From assembly GCF_024397975.1 (NCBI RefSeq), contig NZ_CP073745.1:3622501-3686500 (forward strand): a DNA stretch of 64,000 nucleotides, written 5' to 3'. Both the position numbers and the translations under genes were made by a program. The DNA comes from Bacterioplanoides sp. SCSIO 12839. Lineage in GTDB: Bacteria > Pseudomonadota > Gammaproteobacteria > Pseudomonadales > Oceanobacteraceae. Below, one piece after another: positions 47,797 through 64,000 of this stretch. Numbering within the stretch: position 1 is the first letter of the stretch; every line of letters starts with the position of its first letter. The notes under the pieces were generated by a model. The model searched no databases. It was not told where the DNA came from and was given only the letters and a program-made list of their open reading frames with translations.

Positions 47797-47905
47797 TCTG
47801 ACTGTATTGGAGTTTTATAAGCAGGCCTTTTTTGCAGGGATGCAAAAAGGGAGTCTACAGGGATGTATTTACGACGTCCTGCGTTAAAACTGCAATGCAG
47901 TCAGG
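47797..47905. repeat. Family-1 intergenic palindromic element, copy 12
   Basis: Outer arms TCTGACTGTATTGGAGTTTT and AAAACTGCAATGCAGTCAGG complementary with few mismatches. Closing stem GCAGG/CCTGC, apical TTTTTTG-CAGGGATG-CAAAAA, conserved GAGTCTACAGGGATGTATTT. Between urtB and urtC; open reading frames here spuriously extend urtC upstream. Confidence 0.82.
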
Positions 47906-47922
47906 CGATAAAGGAAATCTTT

Positions 47923-49095
47923 ATGAAAGATATAAAACTTGGGCCAATCACTTCATTATTGGCTAACGACAAAGCCGGGCAGCGATTGGTTATTGCTATT
48001 CTGGCACTGGCGATCATTGTTCCCTTCTGCAATCTGGTATTTCCGGAAGGGTCCATTTTTCACATCTCCACCTACACCATGACATTACTGGGCAAATACC
48101 TGTGTTATGCCCTGTTAGCGCTGGCGGTGGATTTAATCTGGGGCTACTGCGGTATTCTCAGCCTGGGGCATGGCGCTTTTTTTGCCCTGGGTGGTTATGC
48201 CATGGGCATGTACCTGATGCGCCAGATTGGTGATCGTGGTGTTTACGGTAATCCGGAACTTCCCGACTTTATGGTGTTTTTGAACTGGACCGAATTGCCT
48301 TGGTACTGGTTTGGTTTTGATCAGTTCTGGTTTGCCGCCATTATGATTCTGGCTGCGCCGGGCATTCTGGCGTTTGTTTTTGGTGCGCTGGCTTTCCGCT
48401 CCCGCGTAACCGGGGTGTATTTATCCATTATTACTCAGGCTCTAACCTATGCCTTAATGCTGGCCTTCTTCCGAAATGATATGGGTTTTGGCGGCAATAA
48501 TGGCTTAACCGACTTTAAAGATATTCTGGGCTTTGACCTGCAATCAGACTCGACTCGTGCGGCATTATTTATTGCTTCGGCGCTGGCGTTAATTCTGGGT
48601 TATTTAATCAGTCGCTTTATTGTTGACTCTAAACTGGGCCGTGTTCTGGTTGCTATTCGCGATGCTGAAAGCCGTACCCGCTTTATTGGCTATCGGGTTG
48701 AGCACTACAAACTCTTTGTTTTTGTGGTGTCTGCCATGCTGGCCGGTGTGGCCGGTGCTTTGTATGTTCCTCAGGTGGGCATTATTAATCCAGGTGAATT
48801 TGCTCCGATTTTATCCATTGAGATGATTATTTGGGTAGCGGTGGGTGGCCGTGGCACCTTATACGGTGCTGTGATTGGTGCCTTTATTGTGAACTACGCC
48901 AAAACCTATTTTACCGGTGCATTTGCTGAGTTGTGGTTATTCCTGTTGGGTGGCTTGTTTGTGTTATCCACCTTATATCTGCCAAAAGGTGTGGTGGGTT
49001 TAGTACAACAAATCAAAGAAAAACGGGCAGCAAAACAATTAAGCGATGACGCTGCCGATGATATTCCGGTAATTCCTCAAGGAGGTAACTCATGA
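47923..49095 (+). CDS. urtC: Urea ABC transporter permease UrtC
   Basis: A 390-residue LivM-type permease with about nine to ten membrane segments. YALLALAVDLIWGYCGILSLGHGAFFALGGYAMGMYLM is a hallmark of UrtC, as is RDAESRTRFIGYRVEHYKLFVFVVSAMLAGVAGALY (EAA-like ATPase contact). The ATG at 47923 has AAGGAA upstream; an upstream in-frame start at 47863 lies within a repeat element and is rejected. The stop overlaps urtD by 4 bp (ATGA). Confidence 0.94.
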   Translation: MKDIKLGPITSLLANDKAGQRLVIAILALAIIVPFCNLVFPEGSIFHISTYTMTLLGKYLCYALLALAVDLIWGYCGILSLGHGAFFALGGYAMGMYLMRQIGDRGVYGNPELPDFMVFLNWTELPWYWFGFDQFWFAAIMILAAPGILAFVFGALAFRSRVTGVYLSIITQALTYALMLAFFRNDMGFGGNNGLTDFKDILGFDLQSDSTRAALFIASALALILGYLISRFIVDSKLGRVLVAIRDAESRTRFIGYRVEHYKLFVFVVSAMLAGVAGALYVPQVGIINPGEFAPILSIEMIIWVAVGGRGTLYGAVIGAFIVNYAKTYFTGAFAELWLFLLGGLFVLSTLYLPKGVVGLVQQIKEKRAAKQLSDDAADDIPVIPQGGNS

Positions 49096-49856
49096 GTCAG
49101 GCACCTCTGCATATTGAAAATCCATCAGTCTTGTATCTGGATGGTGTTACCGTCAGTTTTGATGGTTTTAAAGCTTTAAACTCATTGTCTTTATTAATTG
49201 AGCCGGGAGAAATGCGCGCCATTATTGGCCCGAATGGTGCCGGTAAAACCACCATGATGGATGTGATTACCGGCAAAACCAAACCCGATGAAGGCACCTT
49301 GTTATTTAACAATCATCACGATCTGACCCAATACGATGAAGCCGCGGTAGCGAACTTAGGTATTGGTCGGAAATTCCAGAAACCGAGTGTCATCGAAAGC
49401 TTAACAATTTTTGAAAATCTGGAAATGTCGTTAAAAGGTGGTCGTTCTGTCTGGCAGGCATTACGCCATAAATTATCGTCAGCACAAAAGAACAAACTGG
49501 ATGAAATTCTGGGCATGATTGATCTGGGCGATCAATTGCACAATCTGGCGGGCAATTTATCCCATGGTCAAAAACAATGGTTAGAAATTGGCATGTTGTT
49601 GGGCCAGGAGCCGGAGCTGTTATTAATTGACGAACCCGCTGCGGGTATGACCGATGAAGAAACCATGAAAACCGCTGAACTGTTTAAAGAGCTGGCGAAA
49701 AGCCATTCACTGATGGTGGTGGAACACGATATGGACTTTATTGATGCGCTGGATTGTCGGGTGACGGTACTCAATGAAGGTAGCGTGCTCGCAGAAGGAT
49801 CATTAGCCTCAGTTAAGGCCAATGACGAGGTTATTGAAAAGTACCTGGGTCGGTAA
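49092..49856 (+). CDS. urtD: Urea ABC transporter ATPase UrtD
   Basis: A 254-residue LivG-type ATPase. Walker A GPNGAGKTT, signature NLSHGQKQWLEIG (LSHGQ variant usual in UrtD), Walker B LLLIDEPAAGM and switch histidine in MVVEHDMDFI. ATGA overlap with urtC. Hydrolyses ATP to power urea import with UrtE. Confidence 0.95.
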   Translation: MSQAPLHIENPSVLYLDGVTVSFDGFKALNSLSLLIEPGEMRAIIGPNGAGKTTMMDVITGKTKPDEGTLLFNNHHDLTQYDEAAVANLGIGRKFQKPSVIESLTIFENLEMSLKGGRSVWQALRHKLSSAQKNKLDEILGMIDLGDQLHNLAGNLSHGQKQWLEIGMLLGQEPELLLIDEPAAGMTDEETMKTAELFKELAKSHSLMVVEHDMDFIDALDCRVTVLNEGSVLAEGSLASVKANDEVIEKYLGR

Positions 49857-49858
49857 TA

Positions 49859-49976
49859 AAGCTATTTGCATTGCTGCTACGTTGTTAAAAATTGATTCAA
49901 AATACTCATTTATGATTTATAAACTCCGTCTTTTCATCAATTTTTGCCTCGTATCAGCTGCTTCAATAACGCTTTA
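49859..49976. repeat. Family-2 MITE-like intergenic element, copy 3
   Basis: About 118 bp; inner arms AAAAATTGAT and ATCAATTTTT differ from copies 1 and 2 but stay complementary. Loop with AATACTCATTTATGATTTAT. It fills the urtD-urtE gap. Confidence 0.78.
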
Positions 49977-49997
49977 TCAGAATTGAGATTAAGAATT

Positions 49998-50696
49998 ATG
50001 TTACGAGTCAACCAATTAAACGTCGCCTACGGAGCCAGTCAGGCGTTATACGATGTCAGCCTGCAGGCTGAAATTGGCAAAGTCACTTGTGTGTTAGGGC
50101 GTAATGGGGTCGGTAAAACCACCTTAATGAAAGCTTTATCCGGGCAACTGGATACCATGAACGGTCAGATTCGCTGGATCGATGGCCAGCTTGATGGACT
50201 ATCCCCGGCAGATCGGGCGCGTCAGGGCATTGCCTACGTGCCTCAGGGGCGCGATATCTTTGCTCAGCTGACGGTGGAAGAAAACTTACAAACCGCGTTT
50301 TCAGCGTTGCCGCGCAATCAGCGTCATATCGACCCGGAAATATTTTCACTATTTCCGGTGTTACAACAAATGTTGAAGCGCCGTGGTGGTGACTTATCCG
50401 GTGGTCAGCAACAGCAGCTGGCCATTGCCCGGGCGTTATTACTGCGCCCTAAGTTGCTGATTCTGGATGAACCGACTGAAGGCATTCAACCGTCGATCAT
50501 TAAAGATATTCAGCGGGTAATTGAACTGCTGCGGGATCGTGGCGAAATGGCCATTGTGTTGGTCGAACAATATCTCGACTTTGCTGCTGAGCTGGCGGAT
50601 GAGTTTATTATTCTGGAGCGTGGCCGCGTGGTGGCCTCCGGCGCAGGCCATGAATTAAAAACGTCTGAACAGGCCCGCGAACTGCTGGCGATTTGA
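49998..50696 (+). CDS. urtE: Urea ABC transporter ATPase UrtE
   Basis: A 232-residue LivF-type ATPase. Walker A GRNGVGKTT, signature LSGGQQQQLAIA, Walker B LLILDEPTEGIQPS, and VLVEQYLDFA in place of the usual EH switch, as normal for UrtE. The ATG at 49998 gives the correct N-terminus (MLRVNQLNVAYGASQALYDVSL); the frame runs back into the family-2 repeat and should be trimmed. Last gene of urtABCDE; it is convergent with ubiK. Confidence 0.95.
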   Translation: MLRVNQLNVAYGASQALYDVSLQAEIGKVTCVLGRNGVGKTTLMKALSGQLDTMNGQIRWIDGQLDGLSPADRARQGIAYVPQGRDIFAQLTVEENLQTAFSALPRNQRHIDPEIFSLFPVLQQMLKRRGGDLSGGQQQQLAIARALLLRPKLLILDEPTEGIQPSIIKDIQRVIELLRDRGEMAIVLVEQYLDFAAELADEFIILERGRVVASGAGHELKTSEQARELLAI

Positions 50697-50724
50697 TTTA
50701 ATACAAACCGCCAGAAAACAGGCT

Positions 50725-50964
50725 TTAATCGGCTTTCTTCTCTAACTCAGCTAAGCGCTGCTCCAGCTCAACCAATTGAGCCTGGGTGCGGCGCAGCACT
50801 TCTAACTGCACATCAAACTCTTCGCGAGTCACCAGATTAGCATTCGTCAGCATGGACTGAAGCTGCCCTCGCATCAGTAATTTCATATCTTCCGGAATGC
50901 CCGGTGTTGGTAACTTCTCCAGAAACTCATCAGCCATTTGTTTGATTTGGGCAGGGTTAATCAT
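50725..50964 (-). CDS. ubiK: Ubiquinone biosynthesis accessory factor UbiK
   Basis: A 79-residue helical protein of the YqiC/BMFP family: MINPAQIKQMADEFLEKLPTP at the N-terminus, then a coiled coil (about 50-79, REEFDVQLEVLRRTQAQLVELEQRLAELEKK) that drives trimerisation. UbiK assists the UbiJ-associated late steps of ubiquinone synthesis. Separated from the nitrogen genes by function and strand, with the large intergenic region 50965-51310 upstream. Confidence 0.88.
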   Translation of the reverse strand: MINPAQIKQMADEFLEKLPTPGIPEDMKLLMRGQLQSMLTNANLVTREEFDVQLEVLRRTQAQLVELEQRLAELEKKAD

Positions 50965-51128
50965 GTCAGATTCTCAATCATTCTTTAATTTTGACCCATA
51001 TTGTACCAGTGAATCACATTTATCAGCATACACAACGCTTACCGCCCCATTAAAAGGCCACCCGGCGACCCGTGTATTTTTTTAGTGCACACACCAGCAA
51101 GCAGACGCTCCAATTTAGTGCTCAATTA

Positions 51129-51142
51129 TGGTGCATGCACCA
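51129..51142. promoter_or_regulatory. NtrC-like palindrome upstream of barrel gene
   Basis: Perfect 14-bp palindrome TGGTGCATGCACCA. It contains GGTGCA and TGCACC, the two halves of an NtrC site in back-to-back orientation. GTGCAC at about 51085 and AGTGC at 51116 add half-sites. It lies about 75 bp upstream of the sigma-54 element. Confidence 0.5.
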
Positions 51143-51215
51143 AGATGAAATCACTTTTCTTTGCAAATTCGCTAAACCTGATCGTAAGAGTCTGTTTTTC
51201 TGCGGTTTTTAAAAG

Positions 51216-51232
51216 TTGGCACACCCGCTGCT
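51216..51232 (+). promoter_or_regulatory. Sigma-54 promoter of barrel-glnK-amtB
   Basis: TTGGCACACCCGCTGCT: the -24 block TTGGCAC is perfect, GG (51218-51219), 10 nt, GC (51230-51231). Transcription expected near 51243, about 68 nt before the ATG. Confidence 0.85.
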
Positions 51233-51310
51233 AATAGCTAATCACAGAATTAAAACGGTGCATCTGCATCGATCAATAAAGTTTGAAAATAACTGCGAAG
51301 GAAAAGAACG

Positions 51311-51976
51311 ATGAAAAAATTAACTCAAGCAATTGCTCTGGCTGGTGTAATGACTGCAGCAGCTGTACCAGCGGTACAAGCAGAAGTTGAAGTATCTGCA
51401 TCCGCAGCAGTAGCGAATATGTACCTGTGGCGTGGTCAGGATCTGGGTAACGGCGCTGCTGCTGTTTCTGGTGATCTGACTGTTAGCTCTGGTGGTGCTT
51501 ATGCCGGTGTTTGGACTTCATCTGGTGATACAGAACTGGGCCAGGAATACGACCTGTACTTGGGTTACGGTGGCGAAGCTGGTGACTTCAGCTATGACGT
51601 AAGCGCATGGACTTATGTTTATTCTGGTGATGATGCCGTTAATGGCCGTGGCAACACCTTTGAGACTTCAGACCTGATCATCTCTGGTGCATACGGCCCA
51701 GTATCTGCTTCTTACTACTATGTATTGGCTGGTAACGATGACTACAGCTACTTCACTTTAGGTGCAGAAGCAGGTGCCTTCTCTGCAACTCTGGGTCAGG
51801 CTGACGACGGTGATGAAGATTACACTCACCTGGACTTGAGCTATGCCTATAACGACAACATCTCTTTCACTTTGAGTAAAGTGGTCGATCAATCTCTGGA
51901 CATTGATGAAGATGCCGGTGCTGTTGATGAAGATACTAAAGTAGTTGTGTCTTATAGCCTGCCTATTGAGCTGTAA
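51311..51976 (+). CDS. Outer-membrane barrel protein of the Gcw_chp (TIGR02001) type
   Basis: A 221-residue exported protein. Signal peptide MKKLTQAIALAGVMTAAAVPA..VQAE. The mature start with ANMYLWRGQDLGNGAAAVSGDL and alternating aromatic/acidic beta-strands (YDLYLGYGG, YDVSAWTYVYSGD, ASYYYVLAGND) are as I recall for the Gcw_chp family of unknown function. Strongly biased codon use suggests high expression. The sigma-54/NtrC-like region and glnK-amtB downstream imply induction under nitrogen limitation; an outer-membrane channel for ammonium or small N compounds is a reasonable but unproven guess. Confidence 0.75.
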   Translation: MKKLTQAIALAGVMTAAAVPAVQAEVEVSASAAVANMYLWRGQDLGNGAAAVSGDLTVSSGGAYAGVWTSSGDTELGQEYDLYLGYGGEAGDFSYDVSAWTYVYSGDDAVNGRGNTFETSDLIISGAYGPVSASYYYVLAGNDDYSYFTLGAEAGAFSATLGQADDGDEDYTHLDLSYAYNDNISFTLSKVVDQSLDIDEDAGAVDEDTKVVVSYSLPIEL

Positions 51977-51984
51977 AAAGCATA

Positions 51985-52014
51985 CAATGGCCCGTGCCCC
52001 CGCATGGGCCATTG
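51985..52014 (+). promoter_or_regulatory. Intercistronic hairpin between barrel gene and glnK
   Basis: Stem CAATGGCCC (51985-51993) / GGGCCATTG (52006-52014), loop of 12 nt, no T tract. It may stabilise the barrel mRNA end or partly attenuate transcription into glnK-amtB. Confidence 0.5.
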
Positions 52015-52024
52015 ATCACACTGA

Positions 52025-52396
<372 letters not shown>

Positions 52397-52464
52397 TTCT
52401 CTCACTGAGAGCACTGTTTTAAGAACATCGAATAGCATCTAAAGCCTAATGCGGGGGGCTTAGC

Positions 52465-53745
52465 ATGGAACAAAATCTGAATCATATTTATGAACTGCAA
52501 TACGCCATGGACACCTTTTATTTTCTGGTGTGTGGCGCATTGGTAATGTGGATGGCGGCTGGTTTCGCTATGTTAGAAGCGGGCCTGGTTCGCTCTAAAA
52601 ACACCACAGAAATTCTGACTAAAAACGTCGCTCTGTTTGCGATTTCGTGCACCATGTACCTGGTATGTGGTTATGAGTTTATGTACGGCGGCGGTTTCTT
52701 CTTAAGCGGCACTGACAGTGTTGCAAGCATGACTGACGAAGCTGTAGCAGGCGTACTGGCCGCTTCTCATGAAGCTGGTTTCGGTGGTGACTCTGTTTAC
52801 TCTGGCGCTTCTGACTTCTTCTTCCAGGTAGTATTCGTAGCAACGGCCATGTCGATTGTTTCTGGTGCAGTTGCTGAGCGTATGAAGCTGTGGGCTTTCC
52901 TGGCATTCGCAGTAGTAATGACCGGTGTTATCTACCCAATGGAAGGTAGCTGGACCTGGAATGGCGATGCAGTATTTGGTTTGTACGAGCTGAGCTACTC
53001 TGACTACGCGGGTTCCGGTATTGTTCACATGGCAGGTGCTGCAGCCGCTCTGGCCGGTGTATTACTGTTAGGTCCACGTAAAGGTAAATACGGCCCGAAT
53101 GGTGAAGCACGTGCAATTCCTGGTGCAAACCTGCCTCTGGCAACCCTGGGTATGTTCATCCTGTGGATGGGTTGGTTCGGTTTCAACGGTGGTTCTACTC
53201 TGAAACTGGGTGGCATTGCGGTAGCTAACGAAGTGGCCAGCGTATTCCTGAACACTAACGCAGCTGCTGCTGGTGGCCTGATCGCCGCTCTGATTACTGC
53301 TTACGTTCTGTTCCGTAAGGCGGATCTGACCATGGCTCTGAACGGTGCACTGGCTGGTCTGGTTGCGATCACGGCTGAGCCTGCTGATCCAAGCCCATTC
53401 CTGGCAACCATCATTGGTGCTATCGGTGGTATTGTGGTTGTGTTCTCTATCCTGACTCTGGACAAGCTGAAAATTGATGATCCGGTAGGTGCTATCTCTG
53501 TACACGGTGTTGTAGGCATCTGGGGTATCTTCGCGGTACTGCTGTCAGACGCTGATGCAACCTTCATGGGTCAGCTGGTCGGTATGTTAACTATCTTCGT
53601 ATGGGTATTCGTAACTTCTCTGATCGTATGGAGCATCATCAAAGTTGTGATGGGTCTGCGTGTTACTGAAGAAGAAGAGTACGAAGGTGTGGATCTGTCT
53701 GAGTGTGGTATGGAAGCATACCCAGAGTTCACTGCTTCTAAGTAA
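52465..53745 (+). CDS. amtB: Ammonium transporter AmtB
   Basis: A 426-residue Amt/Rh/Mep channel with eleven predicted membrane helices. MAAGFAMLEAGLVRSKNT, FFFQVVFVATAMSIVSGAVAER, IVHMAGAAAALAG (first pore-type His), WFGFNGGSTL and ISVHGVVGIWG (second His) are canonical. The cytoplasmic tail ends EEEEYEGVDLSECGMEAYPEF, where GlnK docks. There is no separate signal peptide; the N-terminus enters helix 1 after about 17 residues. Co-transcribed with glnK from the upstream sigma-54 promoter. Confidence 0.96.
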   Translation: MEQNLNHIYELQYAMDTFYFLVCGALVMWMAAGFAMLEAGLVRSKNTTEILTKNVALFAISCTMYLVCGYEFMYGGGFFLSGTDSVASMTDEAVAGVLAASHEAGFGGDSVYSGASDFFFQVVFVATAMSIVSGAVAERMKLWAFLAFAVVMTGVIYPMEGSWTWNGDAVFGLYELSYSDYAGSGIVHMAGAAAALAGVLLLGPRKGKYGPNGEARAIPGANLPLATLGMFILWMGWFGFNGGSTLKLGGIAVANEVASVFLNTNAAAAGGLIAALITAYVLFRKADLTMALNGALAGLVAITAEPADPSPFLATIIGAIGGIVVVFSILTLDKLKIDDPVGAISVHGVVGIWGIFAVLLSDADATFMGQLVGMLTIFVWVFVTSLIVWSIIKVVMGLRVTEEEEYEGVDLSECGMEAYPEFTASK

Positions 53746-53913: not shown

Positions 53914-56900
53914 TTAACGCTGCAACACTTTAAACTCAACCCGGCGATTTTTTGCCCGGCCTTCTGCTGTGTCATTACTCTCACGAGGCTGGCTTTCACC
54001 ATAACCCACAGCCGTTAATTGTTCGTTGCTAATGCCCTGCTCAACCATATAAGCAACAACAGCTTCAGCCCGACGTTGTGATAACGCCTGGTTGTATTTT
54101 TCCGACCCTTGGTTATCGGTATGTGCCTGCACTTCAAGCTGCGCTTGTGAGTGTTGTTGAATATCACTGATCAACGCATCCAATGTCTGTTTATCCTGAG
54201 ATGTCAGCTCAGCTGAATTCAACGCAAAACCGATTTCAACAATAACAACATCTAACTCTGCGATGGATTCCGATACCGCCTCAGCAGGCACAACTGCTAC
54301 AGCTTCTTCTACGATAACAGGTTCTGTAACCTCCGGAGCAATGGTGTCTTCAACCGGGAGAGGTTCAGCAACAGCGTTCACCACCATTGGCTCAGCTTCA
54401 GCAGGAACCGGTGTTTCTACAGCTTTGTATGCCGTATGATGACCAAAACGTTTGATCAGATTTAACGATAATAACGAGGCATCTTTATCGTAAGATTCCC
54501 ATTCCAAACGCACACTAAAGGCTTTTGGCAAATAATATTCAGCACCTAAGCCAAACATCAATTGAGCTGTTTTTTGTTTTTTATAGCTTAATCCTCTGCC
54601 ATCGTTGGTCATGTGATTAAAGCCACCTTTACCATAAAGCGCCAGGCTCCCCTCTTCCCTCGCCACACCGTACAACCAGTAATGGCCAATAACATCTGCT
54701 CCCAGCATACGGTAATCAATTTTACCTTGTGGGCTAAGACGAGACTCTCCCAACCGGGCGTAATAACCCTCAAACGACAGGAACTCAGTCCAGTCCCAAC
54801 CTGCCGTCAGCTTATACGCGGTATCTGTTTTATCTTTTACCCGAAAATCACCGGAGGTTTTTGGTTCCAGCCAACTATTGCCGATACCCGCGCCGACATA
54901 AAAGCCTGACTTGTCGGCATCAGCCGCATTGGCTGCCAGTGGTAACGCCAGCAGAAGTAAACGATAACGGCGGCCCAGCACCAGCGCCGCTAATACAAGA
55001 ATAAACAGCAGATTCAGACTACCGGCTCCGCGGATACCAGTTTCAACACCGCCTTGAGGCTCTGGTATAGATGTATCGTTACAGGGGGCACCCGGTAAAC
55101 AAACACCCGCATCGGAGATGCCATCATTATCAGAATCCTGATTTAACGGATCAGTACCTCGGCTTATTTCAATCGCTGTTGAGATTCCATCGCCATCATC
55201 ATCAGTATCTAGGGCATTAATAATGCCATCACCATCGGTATCCGGTTGGGTGCCCTGACCGTTATTGTTGAGCTCTGAAGCATCTTTAATCCCATCACCG
55301 TCAGAGTCATCACTGAGTGGGTTAAGGCCTAAGGTATTTTCGCGCAAGGTCAAAATACCATCGCCGTCATCATCACTGTCGAGCGCATTGATAGTCCCAT
55401 CACCATCAGTATCCGGCTGTGTACCCTGGCCATTATTTTCAAGCTCCGAAGCATCTTTGACCCCATCGCCATCGGAGTCATCACTGAGCGGATTAAGGCC
55501 TAAGGCATTTTCAGTTAGCGTGGGAATACCATCGTTATCATGATCAACAGCGGATGTCGTTGGTTCTGAGTCAAGGTTATTTGGCAGACCATCATTATCA
55601 GAATCATTATTCGGATTTTCTGGTTCAGCATCCTGATTGTTAGCAACACCGTCGTTATCACTATCATTCAGAGGGTTTGAAGGTTCATCATCATCAGCAT
55701 TCAAAACACCATCATTATCGATATCAGCATCGCTATTATCGGCAATGCCGTCGCTGTCAGTATCTTTGAGAATGGTTAATATCAGACTTTTTGAGTCCGT
55801 AATATTGTCATCAGTTGCCGATACGGTAATGCGTAATGGGTTATTCGGTAAGGAATCAAATACTAACGCAGATTTCTGAGTAATATTGCCGCTGTTATCT
55901 ATCTCAAATAAGTTGGCATCCGGGCCACTCAGGCTCCATGTCAAACTTCCTGTCGGGGTTCCTACAACTACTGCAGATGACGAAAATGGCTGACGCTCGG
56001 TTAGTTGCCTGCTAGTAGGATTAATATTAATAGTAAAGGCGCCCAGGTTATCCACAATATCCTGCAACTCCAACAAAGTATCTACATCTAGCTTCCCTTT
56101 GCTGGCAATTTCATTATTTAAAATATCAATATTAGATTGATTGACCCCGGTAACTCCCAGGCTGTTATACATTTCAACGGTCGGTTTTTCTGAGGCTCCA
56201 TTGGTATCTGCATAGGCCTGGATAATAGCTTCATGAACCACTTTCTGAACTTTCTCAACGGTATCCAAATCCATACCGTCTTTATCTAAAATAGCAGGAT
56301 TTACTACATCAATATTCTCATCGTCAACATCCCGAATACTGGCATCACGATAATCATCAGGTGTTAATGGCCCGGGGTTAACACCATCGCCGTCGGCATA
56401 ATCCTGAATTTCTTTTAATAAATCGGCAATACACGGGTCATTAATTAAAAGCGGCCCCCAAAAGTCATCGCGATATTTATCAGACAAAAACAAATTTAAT
56501 TTATGAACCTCACAAACATTTAATGCACGGTCATAAACAACCACTTCAGCAATATCGGCTTGGGCATAGTTGTTATCACCGTCCCAGCCAATTGCAAAAG
56601 TTGCCTGTTGATCAGTTAAATGAGTTGTATCTGTAAAAGGTGTAAACGAAGCACCATTATCGGAGCCGTTAAAACTTACAAATGACCCATTATTTGCTTG
56701 GTATTGATAACTCACTGTCACCAAGCGATTGGTATCGGCAATACCGGCATCAATAATGGGAACGTTCTGTCCAACAGGTCCGATACCAACAATACCGTCT
56801 TTGGGGGTTGAGCTACCAAATGAGTTAAAAAACATACGGTCCCAGTTGAGGTTATCAATCCCCCATAATGCACTGCCCTGGTCTTGGCTAGGGCCCGTTG

Positions 56901-57342
56901 TGCGATAAACCGTTAAGATCGTGATATCAGGAAGAGCTGTGGGGCGTAAATCCAATTCAGCATCATCGGCATTGCCTGCAATGCCATCCACACCGCGAGT
57001 TTTAATTTGGTACGCCACCTGATTGCCCGCAGAAAAACGAAAGGCAGGTTGTTGCCCAATATCGGATGACAGAACCCAAGGTGTTACGTTAGAGGATTGG
57101 CTCCCCACAGGAATCGTTACATAACCATTCCCACTTTTATCCTGCCAAGGAGTAGACGTGCTGATTTCATAGGTTGTCGGAGGTGTGCCATCGTTTTCCG
57201 GATCCGACGCATCCAGCCATAATAATAAACCGTTACTGATATCCGCCGGGGCACTGCTTGCCATAACAGAAGCCGTGCCCGTCATCGATAAAATACCAGC
57301 CAAACTGCACGCGATTGACGCACGGCAGACCATTCTTCTCAT
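53914..57342 (-). CDS. Giant OmpA-family protein with LamG-like and thrombospondin-3 repeat regions
   Basis: An 1142-residue modular surface protein. ATG 57342 (AAGGG upstream) gives a signal peptide (MRRMVCRASIACSLAGILS). A LamG/concanavalin-like domain (about 35-300, GLLLWLDASDPEND) and a cadherin-like segment (about 440-530, ITVSATDDN) come next. TSP3 repeats DxDxDG (about 530-750) follow. Near 765 is TGIRGAGSLN, a hydrophobic helix and GRRYR, like a C-terminal sorting signal. Right behind lies a second signal-like stretch (LLLLALPLAANA), then an OmpA-type barrel (about 800-960), a Pro/Val/Glu linker and an OmpA peptidoglycan-binding domain (about 1035-1142, VQAHTDNQGSEKYNQALSQRRAE). Likely anchored in the outer membrane with a calcium-stiffened stalk. 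Confidence 0.83.
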   Translation of the reverse strand: MRRMVCRASIACSLAGILSMTGTASVMASSAPADISNGLLLWLDASDPENDGTPPTTYEISTSTPWQDKSGNGYVTIPVGSQSSNVTPWVLSSDIGQQPAFRFSAGNQVAYQIKTRGVDGIAGNADDAELDLRPTALPDITILTVYRTTGPSQDQGSALWGIDNLNWDRMFFNSFGSSTPKDGIVGIGPVGQNVPIIDAGIADTNRLVTVSYQYQANNGSFVSFNGSDNGASFTPFTDTTHLTDQQATFAIGWDGDNNYAQADIAEVVVYDRALNVCEVHKLNLFLSDKYRDDFWGPLLINDPCIADLLKEIQDYADGDGVNPGPLTPDDYRDASIRDVDDENIDVVNPAILDKDGMDLDTVEKVQKVVHEAIIQAYADTNGASEKPTVEMYNSLGVTGVNQSNIDILNNEIASKGKLDVDTLLELQDIVDNLGAFTININPTSRQLTERQPFSSSAVVVGTPTGSLTWSLSGPDANLFEIDNSGNITQKSALVFDSLPNNPLRITVSATDDNITDSKSLILTILKDTDSDGIADNSDADIDNDGVLNADDDEPSNPLNDSDNDGVANNQDAEPENPNNDSDNDGLPNNLDSEPTTSAVDHDNDGIPTLTENALGLNPLSDDSDGDGVKDASELENNGQGTQPDTDGDGTINALDSDDDGDGILTLRENTLGLNPLSDDSDGDGIKDASELNNNGQGTQPDTDGDGIINALDTDDDGDGISTAIEISRGTDPLNQDSDNDGISDAGVCLPGAPCNDTSIPEPQGGVETGIRGAGSLNLLFILVLAALVLGRRYRLLLLALPLAANAADADKSGFYVGAGIGNSWLEPKTSGDFRVKDKTDTAYKLTAGWDWTEFLSFEGYYARLGESRLSPQGKIDYRMLGADVIGHYWLYGVAREEGSLALYGKGGFNHMTNDGRGLSYKKQKTAQLMFGLGAEYYLPKAFSVRLEWESYDKDASLLSLNLIKRFGHHTAYKAVETPVPAEAEPMVVNAVAEPLPVEDTIAPEVTEPVIVEEAVAVVPAEAVSESIAELDVVIVEIGFALNSAELTSQDKQTLDALISDIQQHSQAQLEVQAHTDNQGSEKYNQALSQRRAEAVVAYMVEQGISNEQLTAVGYGESQPRESNDTAEGRAKNRRVEFKVLQR
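55125..55760 (-). repeat. Thrombospondin-3 repeat region of first OmpA-family gene
   Basis: Short acidic repeats of D-x-D-x-D-G type coded in minus orientation. A duplicated block of about 180 bp is visible: NALGLNPLSDDSDGDGVKDA and its near copy NTLGLNPLSDDSDGDGIKDA, each followed by the same NNGQGTQPDTDGDG run. Confidence 0.75.
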
Positions 57343-57451
57343 AACCACACCCTTGAATAACTATTCAGTTAGTAAGTGATTATCAGACTAGTCCATCAGC
57401 GCTAGGTCGCCAGCGCCATTCGTTTTAAAGTCATAACTTTTTACATCATCA

Positions 57452-57486
57452 AAAAAGCCTCCAACCGTTTCCGGTGGAGGCTTTAA
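57452..57486 (-). terminator. Terminator of second OmpA-family gene
   Basis: Minus strand AAAGCCTCCACCG-GAAA-CGGTTGGAGGCTTT followed by TTTG; GNRA tetraloop, one G-T mismatch. It separates the two paralogues. Confidence 0.85.
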
Positions 57487-57509: not shown

Positions 57510-60500
57510 TTAGCGCTGTAACACTTTAAACTCAACCCGACGGTTTTGCGCCCGGCCTTCTGCGGTTTCATTGCTCGCCCGAGGCTGACTTTCACCATAA
57601 CCGATCGCGGTTAATTGCTCAGCATTAACACCCTGCTCAATCAAGAAAGCGGCTACCGATTCAGCACGGCGCTGTGATAACCATTCGTTGTATTTAGCCG
57701 AACCAGAAGCATCGGTATGCGCCTGAACTTCAACCTGAAGGTTTTCACTTTGTTGAATGTCAGCTGCTACCTGTTTCAGCAAGTCTTGCTCTTTTTCAGC
57801 CAGCTTTGATGAGTTAACCGCAAAGCCGATATCCGCAACAATCACATCCACGTCTTTAATGGATGGCTCTGCGGCTACTGCTTCTTCAACAACCAAAGCT
57901 TCTACGACCGGCTCTTCTGCGATTGCTGGCTCCACAACCTCAGCAACAACCGGTTGAGGTTCAGTGGCTTTTGCAGCAGGCTGATACTGGCTGCTTGCTC
58001 CAAAACGTTTAATCAGGTTAAGCGATAATAACGAGGCATCTTTATCGTAAGACTCAAATTCCAAACGCAGACTAAAGGCTTTTGGCAGGTAATATTCAGC
58101 CCCCGCACCCAACATTAATTGAGCCACTTCCTGTTTTTCATAAGCCAGGTTTTTGCCATCGTTGGTCATATGGTTCAAACCACCTTTGGCGTAAAGAGCG
58201 ATGCTGCCCTGACGGCGCGGCTCCCCCATTAACCAATAATGGCCAATCACATCACCGCCCACCATGCGGTAATTGATCGAACCTTGCGGGCGGAACTTCG
58301 CATCGCCCAGCTCAGCGTAATAACCTTCAATTGAAATATGATCATTCCAATCCCAGCCAGCGGTTAATTTCCAGCCCGTATCATGATCATCTTTCTGATC
58401 CAAATTAGTATCGGATGTATCAGGATCCAGTGTGCTTTGACCTACACCAGCCCCCACATACACATTCATTTCATCCCACCATTCGGCATGAGAGGTTAAT
58501 GGCAGAGCTGCCATCAACATAAAACCAAAAGAGCGTACTCGGCGAGTCCGACCCAAGATCACCAGCAATGCCAGAACCAGCAGCAGGTTAACGCTCATAT
58601 TACCAGCACCGCTAACACCGGTTTTCACTTTGCCAGGCTCCTGAGCACCCGAGTTATCACCTGCACCAGGCGCTGGGCTTGGTTCAGGTGTTGGAGTTGG
58701 CCCAGGTGTTGGCGCGACTGGAGAAGTATCCGGATCAGCAGAGCCGTCTATGTCGTTATCCAGATAGTCCGGTGTGGTATCGTCATTATTGTCGTTACAC
58801 GCCGACGCATCCGGGCACTCTTCAGCATCCGTCTTGCCATCATTATCGGAGTCTTCATCGCGGTAATCCGGTGTACCGTCTTCATCGGTATCACGAGGTG
58901 TTTCAGAATCACCTTTTTCATCTGAATCTTTGATGCCATCGTTATCCGAGTCGTCATCCATGTAATCCGGAATATTATCGCCATCACTGTCACGCGGCTC
59001 TTCGCCATCACCACGCTCGACCTCGTCACTGATACCGTCTTTATCCGAATCACCTGAGTTATCCGAAGTACCGGCTTCATTAGCCTTATCGTCGGCATCT
59101 TTGTAATCATCGATACCATCCGCATCCGAGTCCACAGCATTGCCAGGATCAGTCACGCCATTCAGTTCGTCCGTATCCGAAGTACCGTCGTTGTCATCGT
59201 CGGTATCGGCGAAATCAGCCGTGCCATCACCATCAGTATCGATCAGCGGAGCATTTTCATCTTCATCTTTGATGCCGTTGTTATCGGAATCATCATCCAT
59301 AAAGTCTGGAATACCGTCTTGGTCGCTATCGGCACAGTTTGGCGCAGATGCACATTCTTGCTTATCGGTCAGACCATCGTTGTCCGAATCACCACCGGTA
59401 CCATCCGTCGTGTCATCACTGTTATCCAGATAATCTGGGATATTATCGCCATCGGTATCCATGACCGGTGTTAATGGATTGTTATCCGCGTCATCATTGT
59501 TATCACTCAATTCATCAGCAGTCGGAGTACCGTCACCATCATCGTCATTGTCCAATGCATCGATGGTACCGTCACCGTCTGTATCACGCTGAGTACCTTC
59601 ACCATTGTTGGTGATTTCATCAGAGTCTTTGATGCCATCGCTGTCAGAGTCTTCATCCAGAGGGTTCAGACCCAGCTCAGTTTCTTTTTCATCCGAAATA
59701 CCGTCGTTATCGGAGTCACTGTTTTTATCATTCGGGTCGACATCGTCCTTATCGTTCACGCCATCGCCATCAGTGTCTTCTTTTAACGGATCAGTCCCTG
59801 CAGCAACTTCAGCATTATCATCAACACCGTCACCATCACTGTCCTTCTTCTCAGGATCAGTGCCCGCTGCAACTTCGTCTTCGTTTGAAATACCGTCGCC
59901 ATCGGTGTCGTTCGTACCGTCTTCTGGTGCTGTATCACCTGAATTCGGGACACCATCATTATCAGAATCATTTTCTGGATTTAATGGCTCAGAATCATCT
60001 TTGTCATTAACACCATCGTTATCGGAGTCGTTATCCAGCGCATCGATTTCATCTTCACCGTCGGTGTTACGCGGATTATTCAGATCATCGCCGATTTCAT
60101 CTTTATCGTTGATGCCGTCGTTGTCTGAGTCCTCTTTTAACGGATCCGTACCAATGCGTTTTTCATCGGCATCGCTAACACCGTCGTTATCGGAGTCGCT
60201 GTCCAATGCATCGATTTCATCTTCACCATCGGTGTTACGAGGGTTATTCAGATCATCGCCGATTTCATCTTTATCGTTGATGCCGTCGTTGTCTGAGTCC
60301 TCTTTTAACGGATCCGTGCCAATGCGTTTTTCATCGGCATCGCTAACACCGTCGTTATCAGAGTCGCTGTCCAATGCATCGATTTCATCTTCACCGTCGG
60401 TGTTACGCGGATTATTCAGATCATCGCCGATTTCATCTTTATCGTTGATGCCATCGTTGTCTGAGTCCTCTTTTAACGGATCCGTACCAATGCGTTTTTC

Positions 60501-63500
60501 ATCGGCATCGCTAACACCGTCGTTATCGGAGTCGCTGTCCAATGCATCGATTTCATCTTCACCGTCGGTGTTACGAGGATTATTCAGATCATCGCCGATT
60601 TCATCTTTATCGTTGATGCCGTCGTTATCTGAGTCAGACTTCGTCGGATCGGTACCAATGCGTTTTTCATCGGCATCGCTAACACCGTCGTTATCGGAGT
60701 CGCTGTCCAATGCATCGATTTCATCTTCACCGTCGGTGTTACGAGGATTATTCAGATCATCGCCGATTTCATCTTTATCGTTGATGCCGTCGTTATCTGA
60801 GTCAGACTTCGTCGGATCGGTACCAATGCGTTTTTCATCCGCATTTGAAACACCATCACCATCATCATCGTTGTCAGAGTTAGTAGGCTCAGCATCATCT
60901 TCATCTTTAACGCCGTCGTTATCATCGTCATCGTCAGCGTTGTTACCAATACCATCACCATCGGTATCAACCGATTCATCTTTATCGGTTGGGAAGGCAT
61001 CTTCATTATCGTTTACGCCATCGTCATCCGTATCTTTCTTCAGCGGATCAGTGCCGTTAGTGGCCTCGTCTGTATCCGATACACCGTCGTTATCATCGTC
61101 GGTATCGGCATTGTTACCCGTACCGTCGCCGTCGGTATCGACCTGCTCGTTGCGGTCATTCGGGAACGCATCAACGCCGTCGTCAGAACCATCGCCGTCA
61201 GTATCTTTTTTCAGTGGGTCGGTGCCGTTAGTGGCTTCATCCGCATCCGATACACCATCGTTATCATCGTCGGTATCAGCATTGTTGCCTGTGCCATCAC
61301 CATCAGTATCAACTGATTCGTCTTTATTCGTTGGGAAAGCATCTTCGTTATCGTTTACGCCATCATCGTCGGTATCTTTCTTCAGCGGATCAGTGCCGTT
61401 AGTGGCCTCGTCCGCATCCGATACACCGTCGTTATCATCGTCGTCGTCAGCGTTGTTACCAATACCATCACCATCGGTATCAACCGATTCATCTTTATCG
61501 GTTGGGAAGGCATCTTCATTATCGTTTACGCCATCACCATCAGTGTCTTTCTTCAGCGGATCAGTGCCATTGGTGGCTTCATCCGTATCCGATACACCAT
61601 CGTTATCATCGTCGGTATCGGCATTGTTGCCCGTACCGTCGCCGTCAGTATCTACCTGCTCGTTGCGGTCATTCGGGAACGCATCAACGCCGTCGTCAGA
61701 ACCATCGCCGTCAGTGTCTTTCTTAAGTGGGTCCGTGCCGTTAGTGGCCTCGTCCGCATCCGATACACCATCGTTATCATCGTCGGTATCGGCATTGTTG
61801 CCAGTACCGTCGCCGTCGGTATCAACTGACTCGTCTTTATTCGTTGGGAAAGCGTCTTCGTTATCGTTTACGCCATCGTCATCGGTATCTTTCTTCAGCG
61901 GATCAGTACCGTTAGTGGCCTCGTCTGTATCCGATACACCATCGTTATCATCGTCGGTATCGGCATTATTGCCCGTACCGTCGCCGTCGGTATCGACCTG
62001 CTCGTTGCGGTCATTCGGGAACGCATCAACGCCGTCGTCGGAACCATCGCCGTCAGTGTCTTCCTTCAGCGGGTCAGTGCCGTTAGTGGCTTCATCCGCA
62101 TCCGATACACCGTCGTTATCATCGTCGGTATCGGCATTGTTGCCCGTACCGTCGCCGTCGGTATCGACCTGCTCGTTGCGGTCATTCGGGAATACATCAA
62201 CGCCGTCGTCAGAACCATCACCATCGGTATCTTTCTTAAGTGGATCGGTGCCGTTGGTTTTTTCCTGACCGTCTTCGATACCGTCACCATCGGTATCTTT
62301 TTTCAGAGGGTCAGTGCCATCTGTTTTTTCCTGGCCATCTTCAACACCATCTTCATCGGAGTCTTTTTTCAGTGGGTCGGTGCCATCCGTTTTTTCCTGG
62401 CCATCTTCAACACCATCTTCATCGGAGTCTTTTTTCAGCGGATCAGTGCCATCAGTATTAATTTCCTGCGCATCATTAACACCATCACCATCAGTATCGG
62501 CTTTATTCGGGTCGGTACCATGAACTGTATTTTCATCAACGTTGCTCAGGCCGTCGCCATCAATATCGTTATCATTGATATCTGCAGTACCATCGCCATC
62601 AGTATCTTTTAAAATAGTGAGAACAAGGTTTTTAGAGTCGGTATTACCACCATCATCCGTCGCAGTAATCGTAACCTGGATAGGGTTATTGGTTAACGTA
62701 TCGAAATCAGCCGGAGTTTTCAGTGTTAAACGGCCGGTATTCTCATCGATTGAAAATAAGGCTGCATCGATTCCTGATATGCTCCAACGGACATTACCGT
62801 TAGGAGTACCTGAACGCGCTGGAGTGACGGCAAAAGCTTCACCTTCGACCAGGTTTCGATTCAGCGGATTAATATCAATAACAAAAGCACCAATCGCATC
62901 AACAATCGCCTGTACCTCTGCCGTTGTATCAACCTCTTCTTTTGTTTTCCCTGCAATTTCAATATTAACTTGATTAATATTGCTATCAGTTACACCTGTC
63001 ACACCAATGGAGTCATACATTTCAGGCGTTGGCACAGGCTTAGAGGTACCATTTGTATCCGCATAATTCTGAATAATGGATTCATCAATAATGCGCTGAA
63101 CATCAGCAACAGTATTAATATCTGAAGAAGATTTAGCCAGGATGGCAGCATTAACGGCAGCCAGATTTTCAGCAGAAACGTTGTCACCACTAACATTAAT
63201 ATAATCTTGTACGGTTAGTGCTGCTGGACTGGTGCCATCGCCATCGGCGTAATCTTTAATTTTTTGAAATAAGTCGACCAGACAAGGTTCGCTGTCCGGA
63301 ATTGGGCCCCAAAAATCATTTTTATACTTTTCAGACAGGAAGAAATTAACTTTGTGCGCTTCACAAGCCGTTAACGCTTTGTCAAAAACAATAATTTCAG
63401 CAATATCAGCTTGAGCATAGTTATTATTACCATCCCAACCAATAGCAAATACAGGCTGCTGACCGAGAGGGTTAGAAGGGTCAGTATCTAAATCATCCGA

Positions 63501-64000
63501 AGTAGTATCGGTAAAACGGGTAAAAGCCGTACCACCCGTTACCCCATTAAAGCTCACAAATGACCCATTGCTTTCACCAAACTGATAACTGACGGTTACC
63601 AGACGGTTTTCATCAGCAATACCCGCATTGGTGATCGAGATGTTTTGCGAGACAGGACCAATACCTACAATGCCGTTTTCTCTATTGCTGCTGAAATTAA
63701 AGGAATTGAAGAACATTCGATCCCAGTTATTGTCATCCAGCCCCCATAAAGCACTGCCCTGTGAAGTACTGACACCGGACGTGCGGTAAACGGTAAAAAT
63801 AGTAACGTCAGGCTCCACACCTGAGCGCAGATCTAAGGCTTCGTCGCGGCTGTTTTTGATCTGATAAGCAACAGCATTAGCTTCTCTGAAAGAAAATGCT
63901 GGCTGATCACCAATATCTGACTGATTATTCCATGGGGTCGTGTTGCCAGGGCTGGAACCAACCGGTACCGTCAAATACCCGTTCGATGTTTTATCTTTCC
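57510..64000 (-). CDS. Second, larger OmpA-family TSP3-repeat protein, N-terminus beyond window
   Basis: At least 2163 residues, open to the right edge; the frame reads [15 protein letters not shown] there, aligned with QDKSGNGYVTIPVGS of the first paralogue, so roughly 60-70 N-terminal residues are missing. Same order as the paralogue: LamG-like domain, cadherin-like segment, TSP3 repeats, sorting-signal-like [12 protein letters not shown] plus hydrophobic helix and GRTRRVR, second signal-like [13 protein letters not shown], eight-stranded-type barrel, linker, OmpA domain ([20 protein letters not shown]). The TSP3 part is expanded to about 1250 residues by three tandem arrays. Highly acidic; calcium should stiffen it into a long rod. 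Possible adhesin or cell-spacing protein. Confidence 0.82.
60010..60850 (-). repeat. Tandem array, 5 units of 168 bp (56 residues)
   Basis: Five units that carry [30 protein letters not shown] and [16 protein letters not shown] in sequence. The exact 168-bp spacing was checked between GTCGGATCGG at 60643 and 60811. Two N-terminal units have TDPTKSD, the other three TDPLKED. Confidence 0.85.
60910..62270 (-). repeat. Tandem array, 8 units of 171 bp (57 residues) in two types
   Basis: Each unit has [15 protein letters not shown] and [13 protein letters not shown]. Type A has [14 protein letters not shown], type B has NDNEDAFPT[ND]KDES; B' carries the variants TDKDES and [11 protein letters not shown]. 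Order from the N-terminus: A A B A B' B A B'. The block B-A-B' is duplicated, giving a 513-bp higher-order period (TCTTTATTCG at 61321 and 61834). Confidence 0.85.
62235..62460 (-). repeat. Tandem array of about 3.5 units of 66 bp (22 residues)
   Basis: Units [20 protein letters not shown] + EK. The two central copies are nearly identical at DNA level, indicating recent duplication. Confidence 0.8.

Follow-up and report, generated by a model that had tools for sequence, protein, structure and literature searches.

Two tandem gammaproteobacterial genes that probably encode precursors of a sorted surface adhesin and an OmpA-type outer-membrane anchor

The window analysed here, a 64,000-nucleotide stretch of the Bacterioplanoides sp. 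SCSIO 12839 genome, contains two tandem genes on the minus strand; in the product of each, a passenger with TSP3 repeats is joined to an OmpA-type barrel and then to an OmpA peptidoglycan-binding domain. The cell probably cuts the single long chain from each gene into two proteins, because a sorting tag and an export signal are both kept at the seam between the halves. With a probability of roughly 0.8, judged from sequence, rhombosortase and signal peptidase I would make these cuts and yield a surface adhesin and an outer-membrane anchor. The anatomy of the genes, its conservation, the alternation of fused and split forms among relatives and the rhombosortase and type II secretin genes of the genome are directly observed.

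The features of both genes are listed in Table 1. In gene 1, AAGGG lies just ahead of the ATG, and the N-terminal signal shows, on inspection, a basic n-region, a hydrophobic core and small residues at -3/-1. The passenger calls rest on sub-threshold matches to Laminin_G_3 and TSP3_bac. PF13505 (64 bits), PF01389 (27 bits) and PF00691 (83 bits) all exceed their gathering scores and together define the eight-stranded barrel and C-terminal domain of the OmpA family. AlphaFold, with two window sequences as input, gave a pLDDT of 38 for the barrel half, and this model was set aside. The seam reads VETGIRGAGSLN-LLFILVLAALVLG-RRYR-LLLLALPLAANA from 55047 to 54925 and, after the predicted cut, continues with ADADKSGFYVG. 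About 350 residues lie downstream of the Gly motif, that is, the tag is not C-terminal. An earlier note on this DNA had described a GlyGly-CTERM-like segment in gene 1, followed by a second signal-like stretch and a complete OmpA-type barrel; the layout is exactly as it described, with Gly motif, helix and basic tail all present and a TIGR03501 match at the cut-off. RRYR would form both the end of the sorting signal and the n-region of the second signal.

Table 1 Features of the two fused genes (window positions)
Feature	Position	Strand	Basis
Gene 1, fused adhesin/OmpA precursor, 1142 aa	ATG 57342 to stop 53914	-	open frame
Gene 1 N-terminal signal peptide MRRMVCRASIACSLAGILSMTGTASVMA	57259..57342	-	by inspection
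Gene 1 passenger: LamG/ConA-like region and TSP3 Ca-binding repeats	55048..57258	-	
Gene 1 Gly-rich sorting motif VETGIRGAGSLN	55012..55047	-	TIGR03501 match; G-x-G conserved in relatives
Gene 1 sorting-signal hydrophobic core LLFILVLAALVLG	54973..55011	-	sequence and hydropathy
Gene 1 basic patch RRYR	54961..54972	-	sequence
Gene 1 internal signal-peptide h-/c-region LLLLALPLAANA	54925..54960	-	predicted signal peptidase I site between A and A
Gene 1 eight-stranded OmpA-type barrel	54442..54924	-	PF13505, PF01389 above gathering score
Gene 1 OmpA peptidoglycan-binding domain	53917..54252	-	PF00691, 82.7 bits
Gene 2, paralogous precursor, ~2223 aa	57510..64000, on past window end	-	TSP3 repeats, PF00691, PF01389
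Gene 2 Gly-rich motif, 12 residues	58593..58628	-	sequence
Gene 2 hydrophobic helix	58551..58592	-	sequence
Gene 2 basic patch RTRRVR	58533..58550	-	sequence
Gene 2 internal signal peptide, 16 residues	58485..58532	-	predicted site between A and E
Gene 2 OmpA-type barrel	57999..58484	-	PF01389, 25.8 bits

Gene 2 repeats the plan, as the earlier note had also recognized, with the Gly motif, helix, basic patch, signal-like segment and barrel in the same order, and its barrel half is 60% identical to that of gene 1. It starts beyond the window edge, at genome position ~3686681 (locus L067), with its own signal peptide MGRNIVLQVALGLSLVAPVQA; the TTG listed as its start at 63974 is therefore not real, the frame extending beyond the window. 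Between the two genes (57445-57485), an inverted repeat GCCTCCACCG...CGGTTGGAGGC followed by T's resembles a terminator by eye, and the paralogues may thus be transcribed separately. An 887-codon open frame with Ser-rich repeats on the plus strand (59605-62268), antisense to the TSP3 repeats of gene 2, is almost certainly an artefact of repeat composition. The region beside the fused genes (47863-53745) holds branched-chain/urea-type ABC transporter genes, an ammonium transporter gene (52465-53745) and a candidate for a small TorF-like porin (51311-51976).

Across Gammaproteobacteria we collected 71 fused open frames, and in 68 of them two hydrophobic stretches flank a basic loop. An [ASVTG]xA site follows the second stretch in 65 of these 68. 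Among 40 fused relatives the site is present in 38, against a mean of 27.6 when the residues of each segment were shuffled 5000 times, and none of the 5000 shuffles reached 38. The second seam element has the basic n-region, hydrophobic h-region and small-x-small c-region of an internal signal peptidase I substrate. In addition, the unfused homologues L018 and L022 open with Met and a signal peptide of their own, and their mature barrels start at the same EWW. Two hydrophobic passes rather than one are what export of both a passenger and the barrel behind it would require; the two stretches around the basic loop would return the barrel to the periplasm.

Split relatives with a stop at the seam provide the strongest evidence. 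In about 23 cases the adhesin ends in a sorting tag and a stop codon, and a barrel gene with its own signal peptide comes directly after; seven pairs are from the order sample (L100, L101, L103, L121, L126, L127, L128) and 16 more from the class sample, the two genes overlapping or lying at most ~70 bases apart. In L101 the passenger ends in LKTAVSGVGSFEPVLSLLLPLLLLLRRRR and a stop, followed by AFMKLRAPFLMSLIGLTSVHTFA. The stop falls exactly at the seam, and the codons after it, AFMKLRAPFLMSLIGLTSVHTFAHDS, form the signal peptide of the separate barrel gene. These relatives support the proposal of the earlier note that an exported, sorted protein was fused to an outer-membrane anchor, and each half has unfused homologues, frequently encoded by neighbouring genes that overlap and are divided right at the seam. 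In a quick barrel tree with many weak branches, fused and split forms interleave with at least five changes, or eight if solo barrels count as separate. Within genus g96, the fused L091 groups with three split members at 99% support, and the passengers of these genes are alignable, mostly across the TSP3 repeats. A separate search for related loci returned only two distant OmpA matches.

A conserved family gene cluster was seen at L055:16-6729 (G000:C1 ~2468016-2474729), L056, L058, L060, L061, L052 and L053. Its members, named by inspection, are the adhesin/OmpA gene, a response regulator, a LysM/FecR-like protein and a large CHASE2-like membrane sensor; in L052 (with a transposase upstream) and L053 a solo OmpA gene stands in place of the fused gene. 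The cluster, with its regulator and sensor, offers a lead for function.

The chain might instead stay intact, with the two stretches forming an inner-membrane hairpin and the protein tying a periplasmic rod to the outer-membrane barrel. The open frame is indeed continuous, cleavage being deduced from sequence, and three fused genes (L044, L072, L079), with a single hydrophobic stretch and lacking the basic loop, keep adhesin linked to barrel. L044 is the third paralogue of the window genome and L072 its counterpart in the other genome of the genus. All three retain the Gly motif and an AxA-like site, and a single stretch, if it acted as a stop-transfer, would leave their barrels in the cytoplasm. 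L079 looks like a secondary collapse, because L080, a close relative in the same genus, has the full two-stretch form. Against an uncleaved chain stand the signal peptidase-type site in 65 of 68, the split relatives that yield two proteins divided at the same place, and a rod of >2000 residues that would have no evident periplasmic role; we regard it as improbable.

The first seam element resembles a GlyGly-CTERM in its Gly-rich motif lacking Cys, Leu-rich helix and basic cluster. The position at the extreme C-terminus is found in the split relatives and not in the window genes. TIGR03501 (GlyGly_CTERM) matches window positions 54967-55029 with 15.5 bits, which equals the curated cut-off and ranks second in the 3.9-Mb genome, and scores 17.0 bits on the isolated gene 1 segment. 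This short model alone is weak evidence, and the gene 2 segment falls below it and is not reported. We also derived a profile exclusively from 24 internal seam segments. Its ten matches in the window genome comprise the two window seams, five C-terminal tails, each within 24 residues of a stop codon, the third paralogue and two stray matches. A reverse profile, made from the tails of 20 split passengers, places its best match in the seam for 64 of 72 fused frames (a set filtered slightly differently from the 71), 33 of them at E<0.01, with a median of 8.7 bits as against 0.4 bits on reversed control sequences.

The earlier note would have counted the absence of a rhombosortase-type protease against its proposal. 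The genome encodes one (TIGR03902, 143.5 bits; cut-off 84), together with the type II secretin GspD (532 bits) and unfused proteins bearing C-terminal GlyGly tags, including a trypsin-like protease named by inspection. Directly upstream of the rhombosortase gene, L057:3995-6781 (G000:C1 ~1271994-1274780) encodes an M6-type metalloprotease, also named by inspection, with a textbook GlyGly-CTERM tail. The window proteins carry no MYXO-CTERM or JDVT-CTERM signature scoring above cut-off, and their motifs lack Cys. A JDVT-CTERM search of the window genome gave no match at E<=1, and rhombosortase is therefore the best candidate enzyme.

Rhombosortase co-occurs with the architecture. In the order sample of 390 genomes, 32 carry a fused or split unit, and rhombosortase is present in 31 of these and in 101 of the 358 others (Fisher p ~4e-15); by genus, it occurs in 17/17 with the architecture compared with 60/142 overall (p ~1e-7), both p-values being too small because the genomes are related and not independent observations. 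The direction is clear despite this relatedness. The sole architecture genome without the enzyme in this sample is a 65%-complete draft, and of 17 genomes in which the family is represented by solo barrels alone, 5 have rhombosortase. In the class sample, the enzyme is present in 38 of the 39 strongly matching genomes, a count that weighs less because the strongest matches were chosen and several genomes carry JDVT-CTERM instead. One fused gene, in G028, comes without a rhombosortase match; its motif is weakened (SLPVLGS), Val replacing the first conserved Gly. Genus g2 has several fused genes per genome and a second rhombosortase-like gene that scores slightly under the model cut-off, at 68-77 bits (G018:C34:4388-4882, G013:C22:5594-6088, G009:C29:24361-24855, G002:C30:1103-1591).

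Moreover, the tag appears to have been exchanged within this one protein family, a JDVT-type tag standing in place of the GlyGly type. JDVT-CTERM scores above cut-off at the C-terminus of the split passengers L165, L179 and L159, and internally in the fused frames of G482, G552 and G618 (the internal matches being at L172, G552:C6:98637-98729 and G618:C99:5112-5198). The slot thus holds whichever sorting tag the lineage uses, which argues that it serves sorting. These observations bear on a second alternative, in which signal peptidase I makes the only cut, the Gly motif and its helix serve as an ordinary C-terminal membrane anchor of the passenger, and the product is a polyprotein without sorting. 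The internal signal peptidase site is the better conserved element of the two, and Bradyrhizobium FbcH, a cytochrome b/c1 precursor cut at an internal signal, provides a precedent. But the Gly motif is conserved too, rhombosortase co-occurs, the internal-site profile matches rhombosortase-type tails and relatives place another sorting tag in the slot, which makes this alternative quite unlikely.

Internal translation initiation could also supply the barrel half separately, leaving the fused chain of little importance. A GTG codon in gene 1 would yield MLGRRYRLLLLALPLAANA, a plausible signal peptide, but no Shine-Dalgarno match lies ahead of it and neither start position nor spacing is conserved in the fused set, so we give this option very little weight. 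Loss of a stop codon between two genes through a sequencing or assembly error, conceivable given that split versions exist, is already refuted by the recurrence of the fusion, which is present in both window paralogues and in the set of 71 open frames spread over many families, and is extremely improbable.

In the favoured reading, cleavage by both proteases, the gene would be an in-frame fusion of a two-gene unit composed of a GlyGly-CTERM-tagged TSP3-rod adhesin and an OmpA-type anchor with its own signal, in which the stop between the halves is absent and both membrane signals are kept. The N-terminal signal would direct the passenger through Sec, and the Gly-motif helix would halt in the inner membrane with the Arg patch on the cytoplasmic side. 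The second hydrophobic stretch would then act as a new signal peptide, bringing the barrel back to the periplasm. Cleavage after AxA by signal peptidase I, an established enzyme, would release the barrel for the outer membrane, and rhombosortase would cut at the Gly motif, so that the adhesin could be joined to lipid and carried to the cell surface by type II secretion. What this scheme predicts is the topology, the two cuts, the lipid and where each product ends up.

The scheme draws on known systems and departs from each. According to a 2011 survey, the GlyGly-CTERM tag lies at the extreme C-terminus, and the stretch from signal peptide to tag contains no further transmembrane segment (PMC3237569). 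In Vibrio cholerae, cleavage of VesB at its Gly motif is accompanied by attachment of a glycerophosphoethanolamine-containing moiety, and the protein is then handed to the type II secretion system (PMC6219818). The window genes share with GlyGly-CTERM/rhombosortase systems (TIGR03501/TIGR03902) the tripartite signal, the exported protein and a genome with rhombosortase and type II secretion, whereas their signal lies inside the chain, with a second signal peptide and then an outer-membrane barrel behind it. A similar plan is that of Myxococcus xanthus MXAN_5598, in which an internal MYXO-CTERM separates an adhesin from a barrel-OmpA half, and for which a 2025 paper proposes a fusion of two genes with a processed N-terminal part and draws a likeness to TraA plus TraB (PMC11980579). 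Both plans combine a large adhesin, an internal sorting tag, an outer-membrane barrel and an OmpA domain. However, MXAN_5598 has a MYXO-CTERM with an invariant Cys, pairs with a myxosortase and was reported as an atypical case, while in the window system the Gly motif contains no Cys, the genome encodes rhombosortase, and fused and split examples are numerous. The window genes appear to be a GlyGly/rhombosortase version of the MXAN_5598-type plan, numerous and with natural split forms. An archaeosortase substrate with a tripartite signal away from the C-terminus (Abdul Halim 2017, cited in PMC11980579) is similar in having a sorting signal that works inside a protein, and different in its enzyme, its domain of life and the lack of a downstream outer-membrane barrel. 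Our literature search on internal GlyGly-CTERM and OmpA/TSP3 sorting signals found no report of such an arrangement for GlyGly-CTERM.

The split relatives also recall TraA/TraB, an overlapping gene pair in Myxococcus (PMC3325183) whose products act 1:1 (PMC12045341), in that both comprise overlapping genes for a CTERM-tagged surface protein and a barrel-OmpA partner. No PA14/variable domain match, and with it no TraA receptor domain, and no Cys-rich stalk was found in the passengers, and the TraB equivalog NF033763 (cut-off 700 bits) gives 77 bits, in the OmpA domain only. We tentatively suggest, at slightly under even odds, that the family is the equivalent of TraA/TraB in Gammaproteobacteria and is widespread there, that many members are produced as a single polyprotein which two membrane proteases resolve, and that the tags of the GlyGly, JDVT and MYXO types can replace one another in the slot; a tagged surface adhesin would then work 1:1 with a peptidoglycan-bound barrel.

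The genes described here would represent a predicted bacterial precursor in which a single chain gives rise both to a surface protein secreted by the type II pathway and to an anchor in the outer membrane. The fused genes offer a natural substrate for asking whether rhombosortase requires a free C-terminal tail, and the model can be put to a direct test with the natural fused/split pairs and with pairs in which another tag occupies that position. Our analysis suggests that TraA/TraB-like adhesin-plus-anchor units are common well outside the myxobacteria.
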